Shown piece after piece: positions 9,346 to 23,467 of a stretch of DNA of 26,153 nt. The translations under genes and the position numbers were made by a program. Numbering within the stretch: the first letter of the stretch is position 1; each line of letters starts with the position of its first letter. The notes under the pieces are model-generated. The model was given only the letters and a program-made list of their open reading frames with translations, ran no database searches and was not told the origin of the DNA. Source of the DNA: a virus; IMG/VR virus record IMGVR_UViG_3300038348_000016, positions 1 to 26,153 of that record; one strand, 5' to 3'.

Positions 9346-10461
9346 TTATGCTTTATAATACTCCATCAAATCTAACGATTCGGCAACATTTAAATTAGTT
9401 ATTTTTCCATTATATACATAAACACCTTTTGAAAAATAGAAATTTATTTTATCAATATCAGAAAATGCCTTATTATGAATGATATTAGATAACGTTATTA
9501 TATAAGGTAATGTAGATTCAGTTAATATATCAGTGGCACTTTTAGGATAGGTTCCAGGCATATTAGAAACACAATAATGAATAATCCCATGTTTAGTAAA
9601 TATTGGATTTTTATGATTTGTTATTCTTGAAGTTTCAATACAACCACCTTGATCGATAGACACATCAACAATAACAGAGCCCAGTCTCATTGTTTGTACC
9701 ATATCTTCAGTAACAACAATAGGAGCTTTCATACCCGGCACAGACACAGCACCAACAAGCAAATCTGCATTTACAATACTATTTCTTAAATTTTCTTCAG
9801 TTGATGTTTTATATGATACAGAATTTTCTTCATTGCCAAACCATTTTTGACTTTCAAGATCTAAACCTAAAAGTATAACATTAGCACCCATGCTATTTGC
9901 CATTTTAGCAGCGTGTCTACCAACAATACCATCCCCCACAACTACAACATTACCAGAGGTAATACCATTAATTTTTCCTAATTGTACCCCAGATCCTTTA
10001 TATCCAGTACCAGAGCATTGAAGATAATAACTCCCTATAGTAATAGACATATTACCAGCAATAGCAGACATTGGAGACAATAAAGGCAAATTACCATATT
10101 CATCGGATACCGATTCATACGCAATAGCGGTAGTTTTTGTGGATAATAATTTAAGTGTCAATCCCCTATCCACGCCAGATAAATGAAGATAAGTAAACAC
10201 CACCTGACCATCAAAATATTTATATTCTTCTGGTAATGGCTCTTTTATTTTAACTACCAAATCAGAATCCCACGCATCATGGGCATCACACATCGTAGCA
10301 CCAGATTCTATATAATCATCATCATAATATCCAGACCCCTCCCCAGCAGAAAACGTTACAAACACAGAATGTCCATTATTAATTAATACACGAACCCCAA
10401 CAGGAGTAATTGCCACTCTATACTCATTATCCTTTATTTCTTTAATTAAACCAATTTTCAT
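9346..10461 (-). CDS. ald: Alanine dehydrogenase
   Basis: NAD-dependent enzyme interconverting L-alanine + NAD + water and pyruvate + NADH + ammonium. From the ATG at 10461 it is 371 residues, the family's usual length. An in-frame GTG three codons upstream is less likely. Residues matching the mycobacterial enzyme's active site are Arg15 (NEYRVAITP), Lys73 (KIKEPLPEE), His93 (TYLHLSG) and Asp270 (SIDQGGC). The Rossmann loop GDGIVG is at about 176-181. No frameshift, and codon use is as AT-rich as neighbouring phage genes, arguing for long residence. It follows gp46 by about 50 bases. Its role in infection is inferred: alanine catabolism, or pyruvate/ammonium and NADH balance. Confidence 0.93.
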   Translation of the reverse strand: MKIGLIKEIKDNEYRVAITPVGVRVLINNGHSVFVTFSAGEGSGYYDDDYIESGATMCDAHDAWDSDLVVKIKEPLPEEYKYFDGQVVFTYLHLSGVDRGLTLKLLSTKTTAIAYESVSDEYGNLPLLSPMSAIAGNMSITIGSYYLQCSGTGYKGSGVQLGKINGITSGNVVVVGDGIVGRHAAKMANSMGANVILLGLDLESQKWFGNEENSVSYKTSTEENLRNSIVNADLLVGAVSVPGMKAPIVVTEDMVQTMRLGSVIVDVSIDQGGCIETSRITNHKNPIFTKHGIIHYCVSNMPGTYPKSATDILTESTLPYIITLSNIIHNKAFSDIDKINFYFSKGVYVYNGKITNLNVAESLDLMEYYKA

Positions 10462-10510
10462 TTTACACACTCTTTTAAGTTAACCTTTTTGACAAATTAC
10501 ATCAATAATA

Positions 10511-12233: not shown

Positions 12234-13964
12234 TTATAAATGATCTTTGCATAATACTTTAACTATATTTTTCATTGCTATAGATTGATCATCAGGAGAT
12301 ATTTCTATATTTAATATATAAGATTGTGACTCATCATCTAATGCAGTTTCTAATACACTTCTAAATTGAGAAGAATCTGATATATATACCCCAACACCAC
12401 CATCCATTAAATCTGTTATTTTATCATATCTCCAATTATGAATAGTATTAAAATCTCCTTCCATAATAGCATTTTCTGTAGAATATCCTCTATTATTAAG
12501 TATAAGTATAATACTATTCAAGTTATTGCGAATATGTGACGAAAATTCAGAACCCGTCATTTGAAAAGCACCATCACCAACAATAACTATTGGTCTTTTA
12601 TCTGGTTTTGCATATTTAACACCAATCGCAGCTGGAACTGAAAATGACATAGACGTATAATAAGCCATACATAAAAATTGTCCTTTCCTCATAGGAACAT
12701 CAATAATACCAAATAAAGATTCACCTATATCAGATATGACTATATGATCATCTGTTATCAATTCACCTATAACATTAAATACATATTCCAATTTAGTCGG
12801 ACTTGTATTATCATATGATTTAAAAGGGTAGGTAATGGTATCATAGACACCATCCCATCTATCTATACAATTACTAGATTGAACCTTCGAATCATCTAGA
12901 TATACTAAAGATGATCGAACTAACTCATAAAAACTAGAAGTTGTAGATTTTAATGTTTTAACATGTTTATTTTCAAACATGATACCATCATCCATATTAA
13001 TAGAAATATCAGCAACAAAATCAAATGATTCGATATCTGTATTAACCATACCAATTGTAAAAATACAATCTGATTTTTTTATCTCATCAATAACTGTTAC
13101 ATCAGAAAATAAGTTAGAAACACACCCAATAGAATTACGACTAAATTCATTTATTGTTGATTTACCCAACAATGTTGTAAATATAGGAATATTTAACTTC
13201 TTCGCAAAATCAAGAATATAATCTTCTAATGTATTTCTAAATACCTCATGGCCAATAATTAAAATTCTATTAGTTGCTGATTTAAATTTATCTAAATTAG
13301 AGTATGGTAAATTTATAGATTTACATTCTTTAGAAATTTGTGTATCCTTAGCATAAATACCAATATAATCCTTCATATAGGTAGAATAGATTTTTGGTGA
13401 CGAATCATCCCCATATACCATTTGGAATTTCTCTAAATATTCATCAACCGGACGTATTATATCTTTATTTGAAAATTCAATATAAACTGGTCTGGAATTA
13501 TCTCTCATTTTATTCAATGCTAAATGAATTACAGCCATATTAAAAAACATATCATCAGAATCTAATGAGCAAGTATAACATGTAATATTCTTAAATATAT
13601 CTTTTTGAGTGTTTTCGTTATTAATAGTGTGGTGTCTATTCGGATTTATTAACAAATCTTCTTCTGACGGCTTACCAACAAGAACAACTAATGGAGATCT
13701 TTCAGCATATGCTCCAGCAACAGAATTCATAATATTCATAGCACCAACAGAATAGGTAACGCATACCACACCACACCCTCTTAATCTACCATAAGCATCA
13801 GCAGCATATCCAGCACAATCTTCTCTACTCACTCCAACATATTCTGTTTCATCATGATTTTCAATTTCATGTATAAAATTCAACGTATAATCGCCAGGTA
13901 TGCCAAATATATGTCCTGAACCATACAACCTTAATTGTTCTATTAAAAAATGTCCTAAATTCAT
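12234..13964 (-). CDS. Thiamine diphosphate-dependent 2-oxoacid decarboxylase (pyruvate/indolepyruvate decarboxylase type)
   Basis: Enzyme of the non-oxidative decarboxylase family that turns a 2-oxoacid into an aldehyde and CO2. 576 residues, near the usual 550-570. Features matching Zymomonas pyruvate decarboxylase are the loop Asp25 (IPGDY), Glu48 activating the cofactor, the His111-His112 pair (NRHHT), the cofactor motif from GDGAFQ (463-468) to NN (490-491), and Glu497 (GYSTENAI). The HH pair and the last Glu separate this group from acetolactate synthase. GAGGGGA precedes the ATG. It sits between gp47 and gp46 with gaps under 25 bases. Substrate (pyruvate, indolepyruvate, phenylpyruvate or branched 2-oxoacid) cannot be settled from sequence. 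Confidence 0.9.
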   Translation of the reverse strand: MNLGHFLIEQLRLYGSGHIFGIPGDYTLNFIHEIENHDETEYVGVSREDCAGYAADAYGRLRGCGVVCVTYSVGAMNIMNSVAGAYAERSPLVVLVGKPSEEDLLINPNRHHTINNENTQKDIFKNITCYTCSLDSDDMFFNMAVIHLALNKMRDNSRPVYIEFSNKDIIRPVDEYLEKFQMVYGDDSSPKIYSTYMKDYIGIYAKDTQISKECKSINLPYSNLDKFKSATNRILIIGHEVFRNTLEDYILDFAKKLNIPIFTTLLGKSTINEFSRNSIGCVSNLFSDVTVIDEIKKSDCIFTIGMVNTDIESFDFVADISINMDDGIMFENKHVKTLKSTTSSFYELVRSSLVYLDDSKVQSSNCIDRWDGVYDTITYPFKSYDNTSPTKLEYVFNVIGELITDDHIVISDIGESLFGIIDVPMRKGQFLCMAYYTSMSFSVPAAIGVKYAKPDKRPIVIVGDGAFQMTGSEFSSHIRNNLNSIILILNNRGYSTENAIMEGDFNTIHNWRYDKITDLMDGGVGVYISDSSQFRSVLETALDDESQSYILNIEISPDDQSIAMKNIVKVLCKDHL

Positions 13965-15589: not shown

Positions 15590-15631
15590 TGTTATTCCTA
15601 AAGGAATAACATAATCACCAAAGGTGATTAT
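15590..15631 (-). repeat. Tandem pair of perfect hairpins
   Basis: Hairpin one has arms GTTATTCC and GGAATAAC (15591-15598 and 15603-15610) around TAAA. Hairpin two has arms ATAATCACC and GGTGATTAT (15611-15619 and 15623-15631) around AAA. They abut with no spacer. They close the structured intergenic interval just before the gp55 promoter. Only four U's follow (TTTTAC), so termination would be weak. Confidence 0.75.
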
Positions 15632-15911
15632 AATTATTATTAATACCATTATAAAAAAAGACAATAAAATTTAAAGACAGGTTACGATTTCCTGTTAGCC
15701 TAGTTCCTGTTAATTCAGGAATCTTCAATGGACTCAACTGTATATTTGTATCATACAGAATTGTTAAATGCCCCGACCCGATTACTTCACCATTTATTGC
15801 TTGCACTTACTCAATGGTTGGTTGCATCAAAACATTGGTTTCAATGGTAGCCTCTAACACCCGATAGCTTGCGACTCAGACGGTGTTCTTTAATTTATTG
15901 TGCTTTAATTT
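15590..15911 (-). ncRNA. Candidate structured non-coding RNA between fadJ and gp55
   Basis: The 414 bases between fadJ and gp55 hold no convincing gene. The one 63-codon GTG frame (15806-15615) has no ribosome site and ends inside a hairpin. The part from about 15670 to 15890 is visibly GC-richer than the genome and rich in complementary arms: 15856-15861 with 15882-15887, 15834-15837 with 15842-15845, 15789-15794 with 15813-15818, 15704-15709 with 15716-15721, and 15677-15681 with 15691-15695. The pair of perfect hairpins at 15590-15631 follows. A consensus promoter starts it and the gp55 promoter follows it, so it forms a discrete unit. It matches no RNA family I recognise. Alternatives are an IS605-type end or guide-RNA remnant, or a decayed insertion. 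Confidence 0.4.
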
Positions 15912-15917
15912 ACTATT

Positions 15918-15953: not shown

Positions 15954-17927
15954 TTATTTAGGACACTCCATTAATAATTCGGTATATTCCTCTTTCATTG
16001 CTCGATTAACTTCATTAAAATAATGAAGTGGCCCACCCCTAAATGGGGCAAATCCAGTACCGAAAATAATACCAGAATCTATTAGATCCGCATTATCAAC
16101 AATACCTTCTTCTAAACATAATTTACACTCATTAACAATAGTTTCTATTAATCTGGATGCTATCTCTGGTTTTGGATCTGTATGAATTTTATCATCAAGT
16201 GTATTATACATATAAAATCCTTGTCCAGATTTGACACCAAACTTTCCATTTTCTATAAGTTCATTTAATCTAGGCGGTATAGTAAAGTTTAAATCCTTAC
16301 CTATTATATCCATAACAAAATAACAAACATCAAGTCCTACAGTATCTGCCAATTTTAAAGGCCCCATAGGCATACCAAAATCAGTAAAAGAAATGTCTAT
16401 TTCTTCTTTAAGATATCCCTCATCTAGCATATTAATAGCTTCAACAAGTGTAGGCATTAATACTCTATTAACTAAAAAGCCAGGGCTCGATTTAACCTTG
16501 AGTGGAAGTTTATCTATATGTCTACAAAATGACATACCTTTCTCTATAACATCATTGGAAGTAATATCAGAATATACAACTTCGACTAATGGCATTTTTG
16601 CTACTGGATTGAAGAAATGAATACCAATTAATCTTTCTGGATTTTTCATTTTTTCTGATAATACTTCAAGTTTTATAGAAGATGTATTTGTTCCTAATAT
16701 AGCAGTTGGTTTCATTTTACTTTCTAAATCATTATATAAACTTCTTTTAACATAAACATTTTCAATAATAGCTTCAATAACTATATCTGCGGTGGATATA
16801 CCATACCCATTTTTATCAGGTATTAACCTATCAAACACTTCATTAATTAGATGTTCACGTCCAGCAAATCTTTTAGTATAAAATTTATACGACTTCTGTA
16901 ATGACTTTGCTATCATTTTATCATCAATATCCTGTAATGTCACTTTATAACCACTTAGAGCAACCCACATTGCAATATCTCCACCCATTGCACCAGCACC
17001 TATGACATGTACATGTTTAAGATTTAACTTAGATTTATCACCAGAAGATTTAAGTAAATCTTGTAACATAAACACACGGAGTAAATTTTTTGCAGTATCC
17101 GTCATAGCTAATCTAGAAACCGATTCTGCTTCTGCTTTCATAAATTTAAACTCATCATATCCATATTTTTCCCATATATCAACTAAGGCATATGGTGCTG
17201 GATAATGTTTTTTATTAACCTCTTTATGTAGATTTTTACGAATTTTCATTGATACTAATTTTCTTCCAATATAGGAATGCATCATTTTATCAAGTTTATC
17301 TGATCGTCTAACTGGTGGACATTTTTCAAGAACATCTATAGCAGACTTATATAATAAACGTTGTGGGACAATATAATCAACCAATCCCAACTTTTTTGCT
17401 TGATATACTGATAAAGTACGTCCGGTTAACATGATACCCATTGCTTTAATGACACCAATAACTCTAATAGACCTAACAGAACCTCCAAAGCCGGGGTGTA
17501 TTCCCAACTTAACTTCAGGAAATCCCACTCTTATCTTTGGGGAATCTAAAATAATTCTATAATCGCACGATAATGCTAACTCCAATCCACCACCAAGACA
17601 TACTCCATTAATTAATGCTAATGTTGGAAATTCCATGTCATCAATCAACCACATGACTTCTTGGCCTTTGGTTATAGCAGTATATGCGTCATTATATTCG
17701 TGAAAATTCTTAAACTCTTTAACGTCAGCACCGGCAATGAACCCAGAGGGTTTATCGGAACAAATAACCATGCCAGAAATCTGATAATCGGTTTTAACCT
17801 CTAATAATACATCTTTTAATTCTGTTAATACTTCATCTGATAATACATTAAATTTACCATAAGCGTAATCAAAATGCACCCATGCTATATTATTATTATA
17901 TTCTAATTTAAAATGTTTATAGTTCAT
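15954..17927 (-). CDS. FadJ/FadB-like fatty-acid oxidation enzyme (enoyl-CoA hydratase + 3-hydroxyacyl-CoA dehydrogenase)
   Basis: Bifunctional beta-oxidation enzyme: hydrates 2-enoyl-CoA, then oxidises 3-hydroxyacyl-CoA with NAD. 657 residues, somewhat shorter than E. coli FadJ (714) or FadB (729). The N-terminal crotonase domain (1-200) has the oxyanion loop GGGLELAL with Glu116, and Glu138 in GFPEVKLGIHPGFGG. A linker leads to the dehydrogenase Rossmann fold, GAGAMGG (310-315), then His437 (GIHFFNPV) and Glu449 (the His-Glu pair) and a C-terminal helical domain (SPGFLVNRV). All catalytic residues are present. It starts 3 bases after the thiolase stop, so the two probably form one alpha/beta complex. 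Codon use is AT-rich like its phage neighbours. Confidence 0.93.
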   Translation of the reverse strand: MNYKHFKLEYNNNIAWVHFDYAYGKFNVLSDEVLTELKDVLLEVKTDYQISGMVICSDKPSGFIAGADVKEFKNFHEYNDAYTAITKGQEVMWLIDDMEFPTLALINGVCLGGGLELALSCDYRIILDSPKIRVGFPEVKLGIHPGFGGSVRSIRVIGVIKAMGIMLTGRTLSVYQAKKLGLVDYIVPQRLLYKSAIDVLEKCPPVRRSDKLDKMMHSYIGRKLVSMKIRKNLHKEVNKKHYPAPYALVDIWEKYGYDEFKFMKAEAESVSRLAMTDTAKNLLRVFMLQDLLKSSGDKSKLNLKHVHVIGAGAMGGDIAMWVALSGYKVTLQDIDDKMIAKSLQKSYKFYTKRFAGREHLINEVFDRLIPDKNGYGISTADIVIEAIIENVYVKRSLYNDLESKMKPTAILGTNTSSIKLEVLSEKMKNPERLIGIHFFNPVAKMPLVEVVYSDITSNDVIEKGMSFCRHIDKLPLKVKSSPGFLVNRVLMPTLVEAINMLDEGYLKEEIDISFTDFGMPMGPLKLADTVGLDVCYFVMDIIGKDLNFTIPPRLNELIENGKFGVKSGQGFYMYNTLDDKIHTDPKPEIASRLIETIVNECKLCLEEGIVDNADLIDSGIIFGTGFAPFRGGPLHYFNEVNRAMKEEYTELLMECPK

Positions 17928-17930
17928 AAA

Positions 17931-19235
17931 TTATCTCTTTAAATTTTCAATTAAAATCGCTCCACCCTGTCCATGTCCAATACATAAAGATGCAACCCCA
18001 TAACGTCCACCATTCGACTCTAACGTTTTAGCCAGATGATATACTATCCGTGTGCCAGAAGCACCTACTGGATGACCTATACTAATAGCCCCACCATGAA
18101 TATTTAATTTATTATCAGGGATTTTTCCAAATGGATTATTTAAACCAAGTTCAGATAAACAATAATCATTATTATTCAAAGCTTTTATACAACCAATAAC
18201 CTGTGCAGCAAATGCTTCGTTTAATTCCCAATAATCTATATCATTACAATTCAATCCATTTCTCATAACAAGAGGAACTATTGACTTGACTGGGCCCAAC
18301 CCCATTTCTGAAGGATCTACTCCAGCCCACTTAGTATCAATAATTTTTGCAATAACTTTATCACGGAGGTTATACTTATCTAGTGCAGACTCACTTGCAA
18401 GTAATACAAATGCAGCACCATCAGTAATAGGTGAAGAATTTCCAGCAGTTACATTTCCAAATATTTTATCAAAAACTGGTCTTAATTTTCCTAACTTTTT
18501 AATAGTATTTTTAGGTCTAACAGATTCGTCCTTGTTATAAAAATTTCCATCAGTGTCATATATAGTAATTACCTCATCATCTAATATACCATTATCTTGT
18601 GATATTGATGCTTTCATATGACTATCCACTGAATATGAATCCATTTCTTCTCTAGATATATTAAACTTATATGCCAAATTCTCTGCGGTTTGCCCCATTG
18701 ATAAATTAATAGTTGGATCTTTTAGTGCTCGTAATAAACTAATCACAGGAACTAATAATTTAGGTTTGAACTTAAATAATATAGTTAACTTTTTAAGCAT
18801 TGACTTAGCTAATGTAAATTCAGACAACCATATTGTCATATCATCATTAAATAATAATGGTGCTCTGCTCATCGTTTCAGTTCCACCAGCAATAATCAAA
18901 TCCGATTCACCACAATATATACTTCTATATGCGGAATCAATTGACTGTAAACCAGAAGCACAATTACGTTGTACAGTATATGCCGGTATATTAACATTAA
19001 GTCCTAATCGTAATGCTAATAATTTAGCTATATTACACTCATCAGCATCAGGATTAACACAACCAACAATCAATTCATCTACATCATCATCATCAATCCC
19101 ATTACGAATTAACATAGGTCGAACCACTTGGATTGCTAAATCTAAAGCTTTGAATTTGCCAGGACTTCCCTTAGCCTTTAAGAATGGTGTTCTACCACCA
19201 TCTACTATATATACATCATTTGAATTGTTTATCAT
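17931..19235 (-). CDS. FadI-like acetyl-CoA acyltransferase (thiolase)
   Basis: Last enzyme of beta-oxidation: cleaves 3-ketoacyl-CoA with CoA to acetyl-CoA and a shortened acyl-CoA, reversible. 434 residues, nearly the length of E. coli FadI (436). Nucleophile Cys92 is in QRNCASGLQ, NEAFA is at 339-343, His388 is in GHPVGASG, and Cys418 is in CIGHGQGG: a complete thiolase active site. Ribosome site GAAGGAG lies upstream at a rather long spacing. A TATAAATA box overlaps the end of uvsW upstream. The pair with the FadJ-like gene mirrors bacterial fadIJ operons, suggesting capture as a unit. Confidence 0.94.
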   Translation of the reverse strand: MINNSNDVYIVDGGRTPFLKAKGSPGKFKALDLAIQVVRPMLIRNGIDDDDVDELIVGCVNPDADECNIAKLLALRLGLNVNIPAYTVQRNCASGLQSIDSAYRSIYCGESDLIIAGGTETMSRAPLLFNDDMTIWLSEFTLAKSMLKKLTILFKFKPKLLVPVISLLRALKDPTINLSMGQTAENLAYKFNISREEMDSYSVDSHMKASISQDNGILDDEVITIYDTDGNFYNKDESVRPKNTIKKLGKLRPVFDKIFGNVTAGNSSPITDGAAFVLLASESALDKYNLRDKVIAKIIDTKWAGVDPSEMGLGPVKSIVPLVMRNGLNCNDIDYWELNEAFAAQVIGCIKALNNNDYCLSELGLNNPFGKIPDNKLNIHGGAISIGHPVGASGTRIVYHLAKTLESNGGRYGVASLCIGHGQGGAILIENLKR

Positions 19236-19259: not shown

Positions 19260-20738
19260 TCAAATATTTATAATATTGATTGAAATATTAAATTCACCAT
19301 CTCTATAGATATTACACCTTTCGTCAAAATGATTCATTGTATAGTTCTTTTTTTTACCTGTTCTGATATCATCTGCTATATCATATACATTACACACATC
19401 CTTAGAATTGTGAGTTCTAAGTCCACGGCCAATAGATTGTAGTATCCTTATCTGTGATTTAGATGGAAATGCGAATATAATATTATGAATGTTTCTTATA
19501 TTAATGCCTGTAGAGAATGTTCCATTTGACGCTACGATAATAACATCATCTGTATTTTCAGCAAACTCTCTTATATCTTCTCTTTCATCTGCCTTAGTTA
19601 TACCAGAAACATACAAAACTTCTTTATCAGTCATTTCTCGTATCTGTTCGGTTAAAGGAATGCCGTGTTTCTCTACATATTGGAACAATACCAACGTGTT
19701 ACCATTTAGTGTTGTTGCTAACTTTGATATAAAAAGATTTCTACTCTTGTTCAATACAAGGTAATCGCACTCCTCTTGGTATGTTTTTACATTACGCGCT
19801 ATTTTCTTATCTTCTTTAGAGTGATTTAATACCAAACAATTCACTTTAAGTTTAGCTATTGTTCCAGCGTCCATTAATTTTTTAGTTGTTGTGACGTTCT
19901 TTGGAACATCAAACAAACCAGATAATGTAAGTCTGTTAGTTTCTTTACCGTCAAGTGTGCCTGTTAAACCGAAACGATATGGGCAGTTTGTCAATTTTTC
20001 CATAATTGTTGATAGTGACTTAGCTTTTGCTGTATGTGCTTCATCGACAAATACTACACTAAACTGACTGAAATAATCCTTTTTCATTTTATATACTGAC
20101 TGCCACGTTGAAATGTATATTGGCTTGTCAGCATACTTATCTTTACCAGAAGTAATCAAGTGGCAATTTGTTTCTGCATCGAAACCGTAATCGTTGAAAT
20201 CTTTGAACATCTGTGATACCAATTGTATAGTTGGTACGAGTAATAATATTTTCTTATTAGTTTTTTGTTGTTTGAATGTATAATAACGTATTAAACAATA
20301 TATTATTAAAGATTTGCCGGAAGCAGTAGGTGATACTAATAGAGCTCTAGAGTGTTTGATTGCATGATGAACTGCGTCTAGTTGGTAATCCCTTATTTTC
20401 ATAGGAATTTTAAGGTGGTTAATGAAGTTGTTAACATCATCTTTAATTATATCTATCGAATTATCGAATAATGAGAACTTATAACCCCTAGACTCAGCGA
20501 AACGAGCTAGTTCAAACCTCAAACCAAAGTATATTAGATTTGTTTTTGTATCGAATAGACGTATCTTACCATCCCAGAAACCACCTTTATATGATGGCAT
20601 GAACTTTGCGCCAGGAACTTCAAATGTGAAGTGTTCTGATAATTCCATAGCTATACCTCTTTCACATTTAACATGGACGTATACATCATTCTTTTTTGTA
20701 ATAACCAAATCATTTTTATTATTAGTAATGAATCCCAA
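19260..20738 (-). CDS. uvsW: UvsW DNA/RNA helicase
   Basis: Superfamily 2 helicase that unwinds R-loops and branched recombination intermediates, and helps the switch from origin to recombination-dependent replication. 492 residues (T4 about 500). Domains: an N-terminal DNA-binding part with a WDGKIRLFD segment, Walker A SPTASGKS (136-143), DEAH (232-235), GLTGT (258-262), and motif VI QSIGRGLR (about 430). The start is a TTG at 20738, placed by AAGGGAG five bases upstream and by overlap with the end of uvsY. No ATG is in a better position. It sits directly after uvsY, as in other T4-like phages. Confidence 0.95.
   Translation of the reverse strand: MGFITNNKNDLVITKKNDVYVHVKCERGIAMELSEHFTFEVPGAKFMPSYKGGFWDGKIRLFDTKTNLIYFGLRFELARFAESRGYKFSLFDNSIDIIKDDVNNFINHLKIPMKIRDYQLDAVHHAIKHSRALLVSPTASGKSLIIYCLIRYYTFKQQKTNKKILLLVPTIQLVSQMFKDFNDYGFDAETNCHLITSGKDKYADKPIYISTWQSVYKMKKDYFSQFSVVFVDEAHTAKAKSLSTIMEKLTNCPYRFGLTGTLDGKETNRLTLSGLFDVPKNVTTTKKLMDAGTIAKLKVNCLVLNHSKEDKKIARNVKTYQEECDYLVLNKSRNLFISKLATTLNGNTLVLFQYVEKHGIPLTEQIREMTDKEVLYVSGITKADEREDIREFAENTDDVIIVASNGTFSTGINIRNIHNIIFAFPSKSQIRILQSIGRGLRTHNSKDVCNVYDIADDIRTGKKKNYTMNHFDERCNIYRDGEFNISINIINI
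19265..19272 (-). promoter_or_regulatory. T4-late-type TATAAATA box upstream of the fadI-like gene
   Basis: Exact TATAAATA on the minus strand in the last codons of uvsW, about 30 bases before the thiolase ATG. The position suits a gp55-dependent late promoter for the fadI-fadJ pair. Chance matches are expected in this AT-rich DNA, so the call is weak. Confidence 0.3.
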
Positions 20739-21143: not shown

Positions 21144-21635
21144 TTATTCAGTATCTTCAAAATATTGTGAATAGTGATTGTTTAATTTAGGATTAAACCA
21201 ATTTTCATTTATTTTATGTTTAACATGTCCACAACTGTTACACTTATCAGGCAACATTTCTATTAATTTTGGTACTGGAGTTGGTATTTTATTATCATCT
21301 ACTCCTACCATAAGGAACTGTGCTGTAACACATTTTATTTGGCAAGAATTCTTAACATCTTCTTTAACTCCAACCAAATCAATAGTCATAGAAGTTTTTC
21401 CGACCTTGATTACTTCTCCTCTAATAGATAGAAGACATCCTATATCAATAGGTTCTAGATATTGCACATCCATTATTTTAACAGTAATACAATATAATCT
21501 AGAGAATCGTCTAGATGTAATTGAAGCTGTTTGATCTAATAATTTAAGTAACTCTCCGCCATGAAGTTTATTATCAAAATTTGATTGTGATGGTGATGGT
21601 GAAACGACAATAGTTGTTGATATTGGATTATCCAT
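21144..21635 (-). CDS. Hotdog-fold acyl-CoA thioesterase
   Basis: Hydrolyses acyl-CoA to free acid and CoA. 163 residues of the YciA/BACH hotdog type. The N-terminal strand TIVVSPSPSQSNFDNKLHGGELLKLLDQTA contains the hotdog helix signature (HGGELLKLLDQ). It is followed by IKIMDVQYLEPIDIG-like strands and a GKTSMTIDL strand. A short tail contains CNSCGH, a possible single metal-binding CxxC not standard for the family. GAGGAACGT precedes the ATG, which lies just after the ftsH stop. Sitting among ftsH and the fad genes, it adds to a lipid theme. The chain-length preference is unknown. Confidence 0.85.
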   Translation of the reverse strand: MDNPISTTIVVSPSPSQSNFDNKLHGGELLKLLDQTASITSRRFSRLYCITVKIMDVQYLEPIDIGCLLSIRGEVIKVGKTSMTIDLVGVKEDVKNSCQIKCVTAQFLMVGVDDNKIPTPVPKLIEMLPDKCNSCGHVKHKINENWFNPKLNNHYSQYFEDTE

Positions 21636-21649
21636 ACGTTCCTCGTTTG

Positions 21650-23467
21650 CTAGGTATCATACCCCTGTGGTTCTCTAATAATATCCTTTCTTTCTAATAA
21701 ATCGTCCAGTTGATATTTATCTATAGTTTCATATTTCATTAAACATTCAGTCATAGAATGTAGAATATCTATATTATCTTCAAGAATTTTCTTTGCTTTA
21801 TCGTAATTTTTAGATGTTAATTTGACAACCTCTTCGTCTAATAATTTAGATATTTCTGGTGAAATAATTTGTGCTGGTTGTCCCATAGTTCTACCCATAA
21901 AAGGATCACCTTGTTCATCTTCATAACAAAGTGGGCCTACTGCATCACATAACCCCCATCGTTTTACCATATTTCTAGCAATAGATGTTGCACGTTCAAT
22001 ATCATTAGATGCACCTGTAGTCACTTTATCTTTTCCATAAATTAATTCTTCAGCAATTCTTCCTCCATATAACGATTGCAACATTGATTCTAATTTTTCC
22101 TTAGATGCAGAATAAGAATCTTTCTCTGGTAAAAACATAGTCACGCCCAGAGCTCTTCCTCTTGGCATAATAGACACTTTATATACTGGGTCATGAGTTT
22201 CAGTTAATCTACCTACAATAGCATGTCCTGATTCATGATATGCAGTCATACGTTTTTCACCCTCGTCCATCACCATTGTTTTCTTCTCTACCCCCATAAT
22301 CAACTTGTCTTTAGCCTTTTCTAGATCAGACATACATATATTATTCTTATTATTCTTTGCAGCATTAATAGCAGCTTCATTGATAAGATTTGCTAGTTCT
22401 GCACCAGAAAACCCAGTAGTTCCTTGAGCAATATATTTTAATTTAATATCATCGGAGTATGGTACTTTTCTCATATGAACCTGAAGAATATGTTCTCTCC
22501 CTTTAATATCCGGCAATCCCACATTAATTTCTCTGTCGAATCTGCCTGGCCTTAATAATGCTTTATCTAACACATCTGCCCTATTAGTTGCACCTAACAC
22601 AATAACACCATCTCTGTCATCAAATCCGTCCATTTCCACTAATAATTGATTTAATGTTTGTTCTCTTTCATCATTACCACCTCCATGACCAGCACCACGT
22701 TGTCTGCCTACCGCATCAATCTCGTCTATGAATATAATACATGGTGAAGATTTTCTTGCTTCAGAAAACATATCTCTAACTCTAGATGCTCCGACACCAA
22801 CAAACATCTCCACAAAATCTGAACCAGATATTGAAAAGAATGGTACTTTTGCTTCGCCGGCGATAGCACGCGCCAATAGAGTTTTTCCTGTGCCCGGAGG
22901 CCCTACCATTAATGCACCTTTAGGTATTTTTGCTCCGAGTCTCACATATTTAGGTGGATTTTTTAAAAAATCAACCATTTCAGAAACTTCATCTAATGCT
23001 TCTTCCACGCCTGCAACATCAGCAAATGTAACTTTTATTTTATTTTGTTCTAATTTCTTAGCCTTATTCTTGCCGGTGAACTTACCAACTTGTCCACCTT
23101 GCACTCGTTTCATATACCATATCCACACCCCTATTATTATTATTATAGGAAACCATGAAATGAATATACTCATGAAAATAGATCCCTCTTCTGGCGGATT
23201 TACAATAACATCCACACGATTTCTTAATAAATCGTCAATTAAATGAGGATCATCAGGAGAATATGTTCTAAATGTTGTGCCATCATGAAATTCCCCAACA
23301 ACAAACATACCTTCTATTAGAACTCTTTTTACTTGACTACTATTAACTAAATCTATAAATTTAGCATATGAAACTTCTGATGTTATCGGGTCTTCTTTAC
23401 TAGAAGATCCTAATAACAAAATAAGAATTAATCCTATAATTAACCAAATTGCCTGTTTTTTTATCAT
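21650..23467 (-). CDS. ftsH: FtsH membrane AAA+ zinc metalloprotease
   Basis: Inner-membrane ATP-driven protease that extracts and degrades membrane and short-lived soluble proteins. 605 residues, full length (E. coli 644). TM1 is at about 6-20, a periplasmic domain at about 25-95, and TM2 at about 101-118. Walker A GPPGTGKT is at 189-196, the pore loop MFVG at 221-224, Walker B FIDEIDA at 246-252, and the second region of homology is [20 protein letters not shown]. The zinc site HESGH is at 411-415, with a third ligand Asp near 489. No inactivating change is seen. The ATG lacks an obvious ribosome site, and the gap holds the palindrome ATAAAATTTTAT. It may reshape host membrane proteins or remove host regulators; this is inference. 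Confidence 0.96.

Follow-up and report, generated by a model that had tools for sequence, protein, structure and literature searches.

A candidate trifunctional-enzyme-like gene pair for beta-oxidation in T4-like phages that probably infect methanotrophs

Most of the metabolic genes described in phages serve photosynthesis, the pentose phosphate pathway or nucleotide synthesis. For fatty-acid oxidation, phages of polyhydroxyalkanoate (PHA)-producing cultures carry fadJ and fadD among their auxiliary metabolic genes, with fadJ taken as a PHA-precursor gene (PMC12013262), Pacific viromes yielded fadB reads and validated fadL contigs, fadB not being among the genes validated by contig linkage (PMC4053976), and a long-chain acyl-coenzyme A (CoA) synthetase was described in three digester viruses (PMC10401857). 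Giant algal viruses such as Prymnesium kappa virus encode a viral lipase and acyl-CoA dehydrogenase, and the same review states that no giant virus was known to have enoyl-CoA hydratase or ketothiolase (PMC9270025). The T4-like marine genome TARA_ERS478052_N000008 has an aceBA operon, discussed as channelling acetyl-CoA carbon to gluconeogenesis (PMC5332604). Here we describe a linked pair of genes, for a fadI-like thiolase and a fadJ-like hydratase/dehydrogenase, in a 26,153-base fragment of a T4-like phage (IMG/VR record IMGVR_UViG_3300038348_000016, positions 1 to 26,153; hereafter, the window).

The gene pair and its place in the phage core

Nearly all genes of the window are on the minus strand, including the pair, its two genes separated by 3 bp, and the T4-type genes on either side:

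17931-19235, minus strand: fadI-like 3-ketoacyl-CoA thiolase of the trifunctional-enzyme beta (TFP-beta) type, 434 aa, open reading frame (ORF) uninterrupted
15954-17927, minus strand: fadJ-like enoyl-CoA hydratase / 3-hydroxyacyl-CoA dehydrogenase, 657 aa, ORF uninterrupted
19260-20738, minus strand: uvsW helicase, upstream flank (UvsW_N, phrog_16), the same neighbour as in the related contig L001
15036-15539, minus strand: gp55 late sigma factor, downstream flank (phrog_234, E 5e-48)

We read the two proteins as probably forming a phage-encoded trifunctional-enzyme-like unit, part of an interpretation set out below to which, taken as a whole, we assign a probability of about 0.62. Scores against Pfam are far over cut-off for both the thiolase (Thiolase_N, 218 bits; Thiolase_C, 138 bits) and the FadJ-like protein (ECH_1, 130 bits; 3HCDH_N, 164 bits; 3HCDH, 94 bits). 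In an alignment of 11 thiolases, C92, N339-E340-A341-F342, G387-H388-P389 and C418-x-G420 are invariant, as are the hydratase residues E116 and E138, the GAGxMG NAD motif and the dehydrogenase residues H437 and E449 among nine phage FadJ-like sequences, whose catalytic residues match those of E. coli FadJ (8bnu) in a full-length alignment. Residues 4-431 of the thiolase align end to end with human mitochondrial TFP-beta (6dv2), whereas the soluble thiolase 8k1c matches in two stretches and leaves residues 129-166 unaligned, which assigns the phage enzyme to the TFP-beta/FadI type. It also passes NCBIfam PRK08170 (614.5 bits, cut-off 593), and no cellular copy found is more than about 56% identical to either protein of the pair. 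A first-pass annotation, made from the sequence alone, had described an intact thiolase and hydratase/dehydrogenase pair, back to back, with complete active sites, inside a T4-like core between uvsW and gp55; the uninterrupted ORFs, the invariant motifs and the Pfam and PHROG matches of the neighbours bear this out. Other T4-type homologues in the window are gp43, gp44, gp45, gp46, gp47, gp19, gp22 and gp23.

That annotation had also raised the question of a chimeric contig. The independent contig L001 repeats the order gp19-ftsH-thioesterase-orf-uvsW-fadI-fadJ at 84-92% protein identity; the junction of fadJ with gp55 is seen in the window only, as L001 stops just past fadJ. An empty site is present in three further contigs (L161-L163; uvsW 70-71% identical to that of the window), in which uvsW is followed by about 300 nt and gp55, with no fadI or fadJ, and in L163 gp47 and gp46 adjoin with no decarboxylase gene between them. 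The empty uvsW-gp55 site and the adjoining gp46/gp47 indicate that the metabolic genes of the window are insertions at separate points of a conserved core. Codon use in the pair follows that of the phage core genes (correlation of relative synonymous codon usage, 0.95; GC content at third codon positions, GC3, 0.18 vs 0.225), in agreement with the phage-like, AT-rich codon use noted previously, whereas GC3 of the nearest bacterial homologues is 0.61-0.69. An artefact, either bacterial DNA or a chimeric contig, would fit the fadI-fadJ gene order, which is the same in bacterial homologues, but we consider it very improbable and reject it: the uvsW-fadI-fadJ junction recurs in L001, the pair stands beside many T4-type genes in the related genomes G001 and G002, the phage sequences form one clade far below the nearest bacteria in GC3, and the empty site is known.

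The contigs with the empty site carry genes of their own between gp23 and gp19 (L161:2357-4704 and the equivalent intervals of L162 and L163), namely a dihydroorotate dehydrogenase (78-80% identical to that of G001) and an alpha/beta-hydrolase match (21% identical). The window has neither between gp23 and gp19, the cargo near these core genes being different.

Distribution, transfer and probable host

Searches of IMG/VR for relatives found the fadI-fadJ pair in four groups of T4-like contigs, its genome position differing in at least three. Group A consists of the window and L001, group B of G001 (115 kb), G002 (97 kb) and others, group C of G013 (61 kb), L006, L011 and others, and group D of L009, which carries a gp32 fragment and in which fadI and fadJ show 59% and 55% identity. 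The pair is not located at uvsW-gp55 in groups B and C: it is at 71.5-74.8 kb in G001, where the replication genes are at 105-115 kb, and near thy1 in G013. The fadJ of L011 (L011:8356-10105) is split into two overlapping frames with a break at about 9230, which probably reflects a frame-shifting error of sequencing or assembly, as the gene is unbroken in sister contigs. A gp43 search for longer contigs of lineage A returned three short ones only.

Further genes of the window belong to a set shared among these phages:

21650-23467, minus strand: FtsH protease (Pfam M41 + AAA; 84-86% identical in G001/G013)
21144-21635, minus strand: hotdog-fold acyl-CoA thioesterase-like, YciA-like protein (weak match, PRK10694, E 2e-8, under cut-off)
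12234-13964, minus strand: thiamine pyrophosphate (TPP)-dependent 2-oxoacid decarboxylase, inserted between gp46 and gp47 (TPP_enzyme_N/M/C)
9346-10470, minus strand: alanine dehydrogenase-like protein, next to gp46 (AlaDh_PNT_N/C; 67% identical in G001)

The thioesterase-like protein has orthologues in L001 (86%), G001 (79%) and G013 (83%); the closest solved structures to the decarboxylase (83% identical in G001) are phenylpyruvate and branched-chain ketoacid decarboxylases; and the alanine dehydrogenase-like protein falls slightly under the TIGR00518 cut-off (385.9 vs 391.85 bits). Between the window and G001, core identity is 43% for gp43, 34% for gp45 and 39% for gp46, whereas the cassette is far more similar (fadI 87%, fadJ 80%, decarboxylase 83%, ftsH 84%, thioesterase 79%, a cobS-like gene 80% and alanine dehydrogenase 67%). 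Group C is the closer relative of group A by core genes, with identities from 69% (gp43) to 86% in the better-conserved replication genes, yet the synonymous distance of fadI is smaller between A and B (0.59) than between A and C (1.14). Together, by sequence comparison, these contrasts show that the cassette has been transferred between phage lineages and repeatedly gained.

The ratio of nonsynonymous to synonymous substitution (dN/dS) across eight phage sequences is 0.09-0.19 for fadI and 0.10-0.21 for fadJ, and such low values indicate that both genes are kept by selection. The selected function proposed in the first-pass annotation is thus supported, as it is by retention of the pair in four contig groups, and the genes have the attributes expected of auxiliary metabolic genes, being host-derived, inside a phage genome and under purifying selection. 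The supposed rarity of such genes in phages also stands: PHROG has no family for the thiolase or the FadJ-like protein, and among 50,697 phage records nothing matched either protein at >60% identity. Matches below 60% in the phage collection were set aside, many having bacterial-looking annotation (fadB, paaF, paaJ) or bacterial-sized contigs. Some phage-filed records (CAKLQF02/CAKLQH02, Acinetobacter phage MD-2021a; AGRM01; AFYI01) resemble bacterial assemblies by annotation and size, and such records, which reach 691 kb, contain fad and paa genes and include Salmonella assembly records, may mislead searches for auxiliary metabolic genes.

Several lines of evidence point to the host. In quick trees of both proteins, the phage FadI and FadJ clade falls inside the gammaproteobacteria, beside the Methylococcaceae metagenome-assembled genomes (MAGs) L041 (UBA1147) and L047, with Shimodaira-Hasegawa-like approximate likelihood-ratio (SH-aLRT) support of 91 for FadI and 100 for FadJ; the database searches and trees suggested in the first-pass annotation thus place the phage proteins within a bacterial clade. 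For the FtsH of the window, the best three of 369 gammaproteobacterial genomes (G266, G153 and G011) are all Methylococcales. DnaK has its best match in G266 as well, but was rejected as a sole host marker for its flat ranking around 70% identity. Phage-to-Methylococcales identities are only 54-70% for FadI, FadJ, FtsH and DnaK, and there is no spacer, prophage or pmoC link to the order. Methanotrophs encode a PmoC/AmoC-family protein, and one is encoded by G011, G012 and G266; pmoC was not found in the phage records. Malyl-CoA lyase occurs in 119/151 Methylococcales genomes at E 1e-100 and in 39/369 genomes of the gammaproteobacterial class at the stricter E 1e-110, two counts made at different thresholds. 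We consider a Methylococcales methanotroph the likely host.

Proposed role and competing explanations

The relatives carry genes that would widen the pathway, and in G001 these are:

53657-55780: FadE-type acyl-CoA dehydrogenase (PRK09463, 910.6 bits, cut-off 600)
28045-30435: phosphoenolpyruvate (PEP) synthase (1101 bits, cut-off 598)
32768-33745: malate dehydrogenase (418 bits, cut-off 271)
95334-96611: isocitrate lyase (737 bits, cut-off 562), KKCGH intact
39050-40012: malyl-CoA lyase homologue, whose 89%-identical G013 copy matches malyl-CoA lyase 5ugr (E 2e-102)

Isocitrate lyase scores 737-752 bits across the relatives (cut-off 562). Also present in G001 are phosphoribosyl pyrophosphate (PRPP) synthetase, aspartate decarboxylase, a class-3 lipase-like protein, dihydroorotate dehydrogenase, ribonucleotide reductase, Thy1 and two alpha/beta-hydrolase-domain proteins, one fused to an acyltransferase. 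G013 shares FadE (58%), isocitrate lyase (90%), PEP synthase (86%) and malyl-CoA lyase (89%) with G001, along with PRPP synthetase, lipase, ribonucleotide reductase and thioesterase; malate dehydrogenase is reported for the 115-kb G001 and is not among the genes of the 61-kb G013. FadE, of the bacterial long-chain type with ACDH_C, occurs together with FadJ and the thiolase in G001, G002 and G013. A further phage contig (L124:241-5273) has isocitrate lyase, malyl-CoA lyase, FadE and a formyltransferase head to tail.

From the established roles of these enzymes, we infer activity and the direction of flux as follows. Host lipid would be converted to acyl-CoA by a host acyl-CoA synthetase and oxidised by an acyl-CoA dehydrogenase, supplied by the host or, in the relatives, by phage FadE. 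FadJ and FadI would then carry out hydration, dehydrogenation and thiolysis, the three reactions that complete each round of beta-oxidation. The resulting acetyl-CoA and NADH could feed respiration, and acetyl-CoA could be taken up by isocitrate lyase and malyl-CoA lyase, the latter standing in for malate synthase together with the thioesterase, and then, by way of malate dehydrogenase and PEP synthase, enter gluconeogenesis and supply PRPP and deoxynucleoside triphosphates (dNTPs). The shunt and gluconeogenesis enzymes are known from genes of the relatives and not from the window, and lineage A would carry FadE and the shunt genes beyond the sequenced fragment. Beta-oxidation of host lipid, yielding acetyl-CoA for energy and for a glyoxylate-shunt and gluconeogenic route to nucleotides, is thus the role included in the probability given above.

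The unit would probably be made late in infection, as suggested by one predicted element:

19265-19272, minus strand: candidate T4-type late promoter TATAAATA, 37 nt upstream of the fadI ATG

The octamer is also found at -38 of fadI in L001 and is missing at the matching spot in L161-L163, which have no fadI, a pattern that suggests late expression of fadI.

Several observations count against this interpretation. The thiolase falls under the FadI equivalog cut-offs (TIGR02446, 256 vs 711.55; PRK08963, 320 vs 560), as does the FadJ-like protein under those for FadJ (PRK11154, 509.7 vs 869; TIGR02440, 445.6 vs 968.45) and also for FadB (PRK11730, 466.9 vs 870), and we rejected naming the pair FadI/FadJ equivalogs on these curated NCBIfam thresholds. 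The promoter octamer is not enriched in the window (5 found vs 8.9 expected) and overlaps uvsW codons, making it weak evidence for a late promoter. Acyl-CoA synthetase (FadD, PF00501) is absent from seven phage records, possibly fragments, while the same AMP-binding search gave 11 matches in the MAG G011; the absence is provisional because the phage records are incomplete. No electron-transfer flavoprotein (ETF) was identified in the phages, nor was a phage malate synthase found, so that malyl-CoA lyase and the thioesterase would have to stand in, and FadE, FadD and glyoxylate-shunt genes were not seen in the window fragment. The first-pass annotation had expected the host to supply the substrate, both acyl-CoA synthetase and acyl-CoA dehydrogenase lacking from the window; its view of the synthetase persists, but a host-supplied dehydrogenase holds for the 26-kb fragment only, as related phages carry FadE. 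Its interpretation overall survives in selected function, codon use and rarity, with the dehydrogenase supply revised.

The same genes could serve other ends. FadI and FadJ could act with the thioesterase and lipases in lipid remodelling, shortening or recycling acyl chains, freeing CoA or conditioning the membrane for lysis; the thioesterase of lineages A, B and C and the lipase-like and acyltransferase-hydrolase genes of G001 would suit such a role, but those genomes also hold isocitrate lyase, malyl-CoA lyase, PEP synthase and malate dehydrogenase, a set that speaks for the use of acetyl-CoA as carbon, and we regard remodelling as unlikely. Less probable still is the catabolism of acyl-CoA derived from amino acids, in which the pair, the decarboxylase and alanine dehydrogenase would handle intermediates of branched-chain, aromatic or propionate type. 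Both additional genes do accompany the pair in lineages A and B, and the closest decarboxylase structures use phenylpyruvate or branched-chain ketoacids, but the 61-kb record of lineage C, which retains fadI, fadJ and FadE, yielded neither of them, and FadE is of the long-chain type.

The first-pass annotation had left room for the pair either releasing acetyl-CoA or running in reverse, with thiolase and FadJ condensing and reducing acetyl-CoA to short- or medium-chain acyl-CoA, either as material for membranes or a storage polymer or to balance redox. Each of the three reactions can run both ways, and the best curated match of the thiolase is named acetyl-CoA C-acetyltransferase, but a FadE-type dehydrogenase stands alongside the pair in two lineages, no trans-enoyl-CoA reductase was recognised, and the TFP-beta-type architecture is typical of degradation. 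Because the relatives have FadE, isocitrate lyase and PEP synthase, the reverse direction becomes less likely, and we place it lowest among these functional alternatives, as distinctly improbable.

We therefore favour oxidation of host lipid. As a tentative extension, which we hold with less than even confidence, a family of T4-like phages, probably of methanotrophs, may carry an almost complete path from lipid to nucleotides, lacking chiefly acyl-CoA synthetase and swapped between distant lineages as a portable metabolic programme. The path would run from lipase, FadE, FadJ and FadI through isocitrate lyase, malyl-CoA lyase (in place of malate synthase), malate dehydrogenase and PEP synthase to PRPP synthetase and ribonucleotide reductase. 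If so, phages could draw on host lipid as both fuel and carbon, affecting carbon release or retention by infected cells, possibly methane oxidisers. The pair offers a small, testable two-gene system and an explicit hypothesis of carbon flow.

Other features and comparison with known systems

The spacer between fadJ and gp55 holds a further candidate feature:

15610-15914, minus strand: candidate structured RNA, about 300 nt, conserved, with compensatory changes

It is conserved in L161-L163, with compensatory changes at 12/50 predicted pairs (only four sequences), and has a perfect TTGACA-18-TATAAT sigma-70 promoter just upstream and a hairpin with a T-rich tail downstream; the spacer had no Rfam match (E<=5). 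A 63-aa ORF inside it (15615-15806) is probably no gene. G001 also encodes a Mom-type DNA modification protein and four DNA methyltransferase homologues (L025:11050-11949, L025:8255-9187, L025:18623-19498, L027:6661-8142 and L027:11341-12381), suggesting heavy DNA modification.

Searches of the open-access literature turned up no phage described as having FadE, FadJ and thiolase at once, and none in which this trio is combined with glyoxylate-shunt and PEP synthase genes, although an earlier report is possible. The marine genome TARA_ERS478052_N000008 is also T4-like with isocitrate lyase, and the part of its description considered here mentions no beta-oxidation genes (PMC5332604); relative to the aceBA genome as described there, the relatives of the window pair isocitrate lyase with malyl-CoA lyase, PEP synthase and FadE/FadJ/FadI. 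Phages of PHA-producing cultures and the Pacific viromes likewise have fatty-acid-oxidation genes attributed to phages, but singly, whereas here thiolase and FadJ are linked in a T4 core and occur in several lineages, with FadE. Giant viruses have lipase and acyl-CoA dehydrogenase in common with these phages, which differ in having both hydratase and ketothiolase genes. The cellular trifunctional enzyme (E. coli FadIJ, anEcTFP, 8bnr/8bnu; human TFP, 6dv2) is likewise a two-gene system of TFP-beta thiolase and alpha chain, and its catalytic residues are conserved in the phage pair, which has the gene order of gammaproteobacteria; the phage version differs in being AT-rich, phage-encoded, below the equivalog cut-offs and no closer than the identity ceiling given above.

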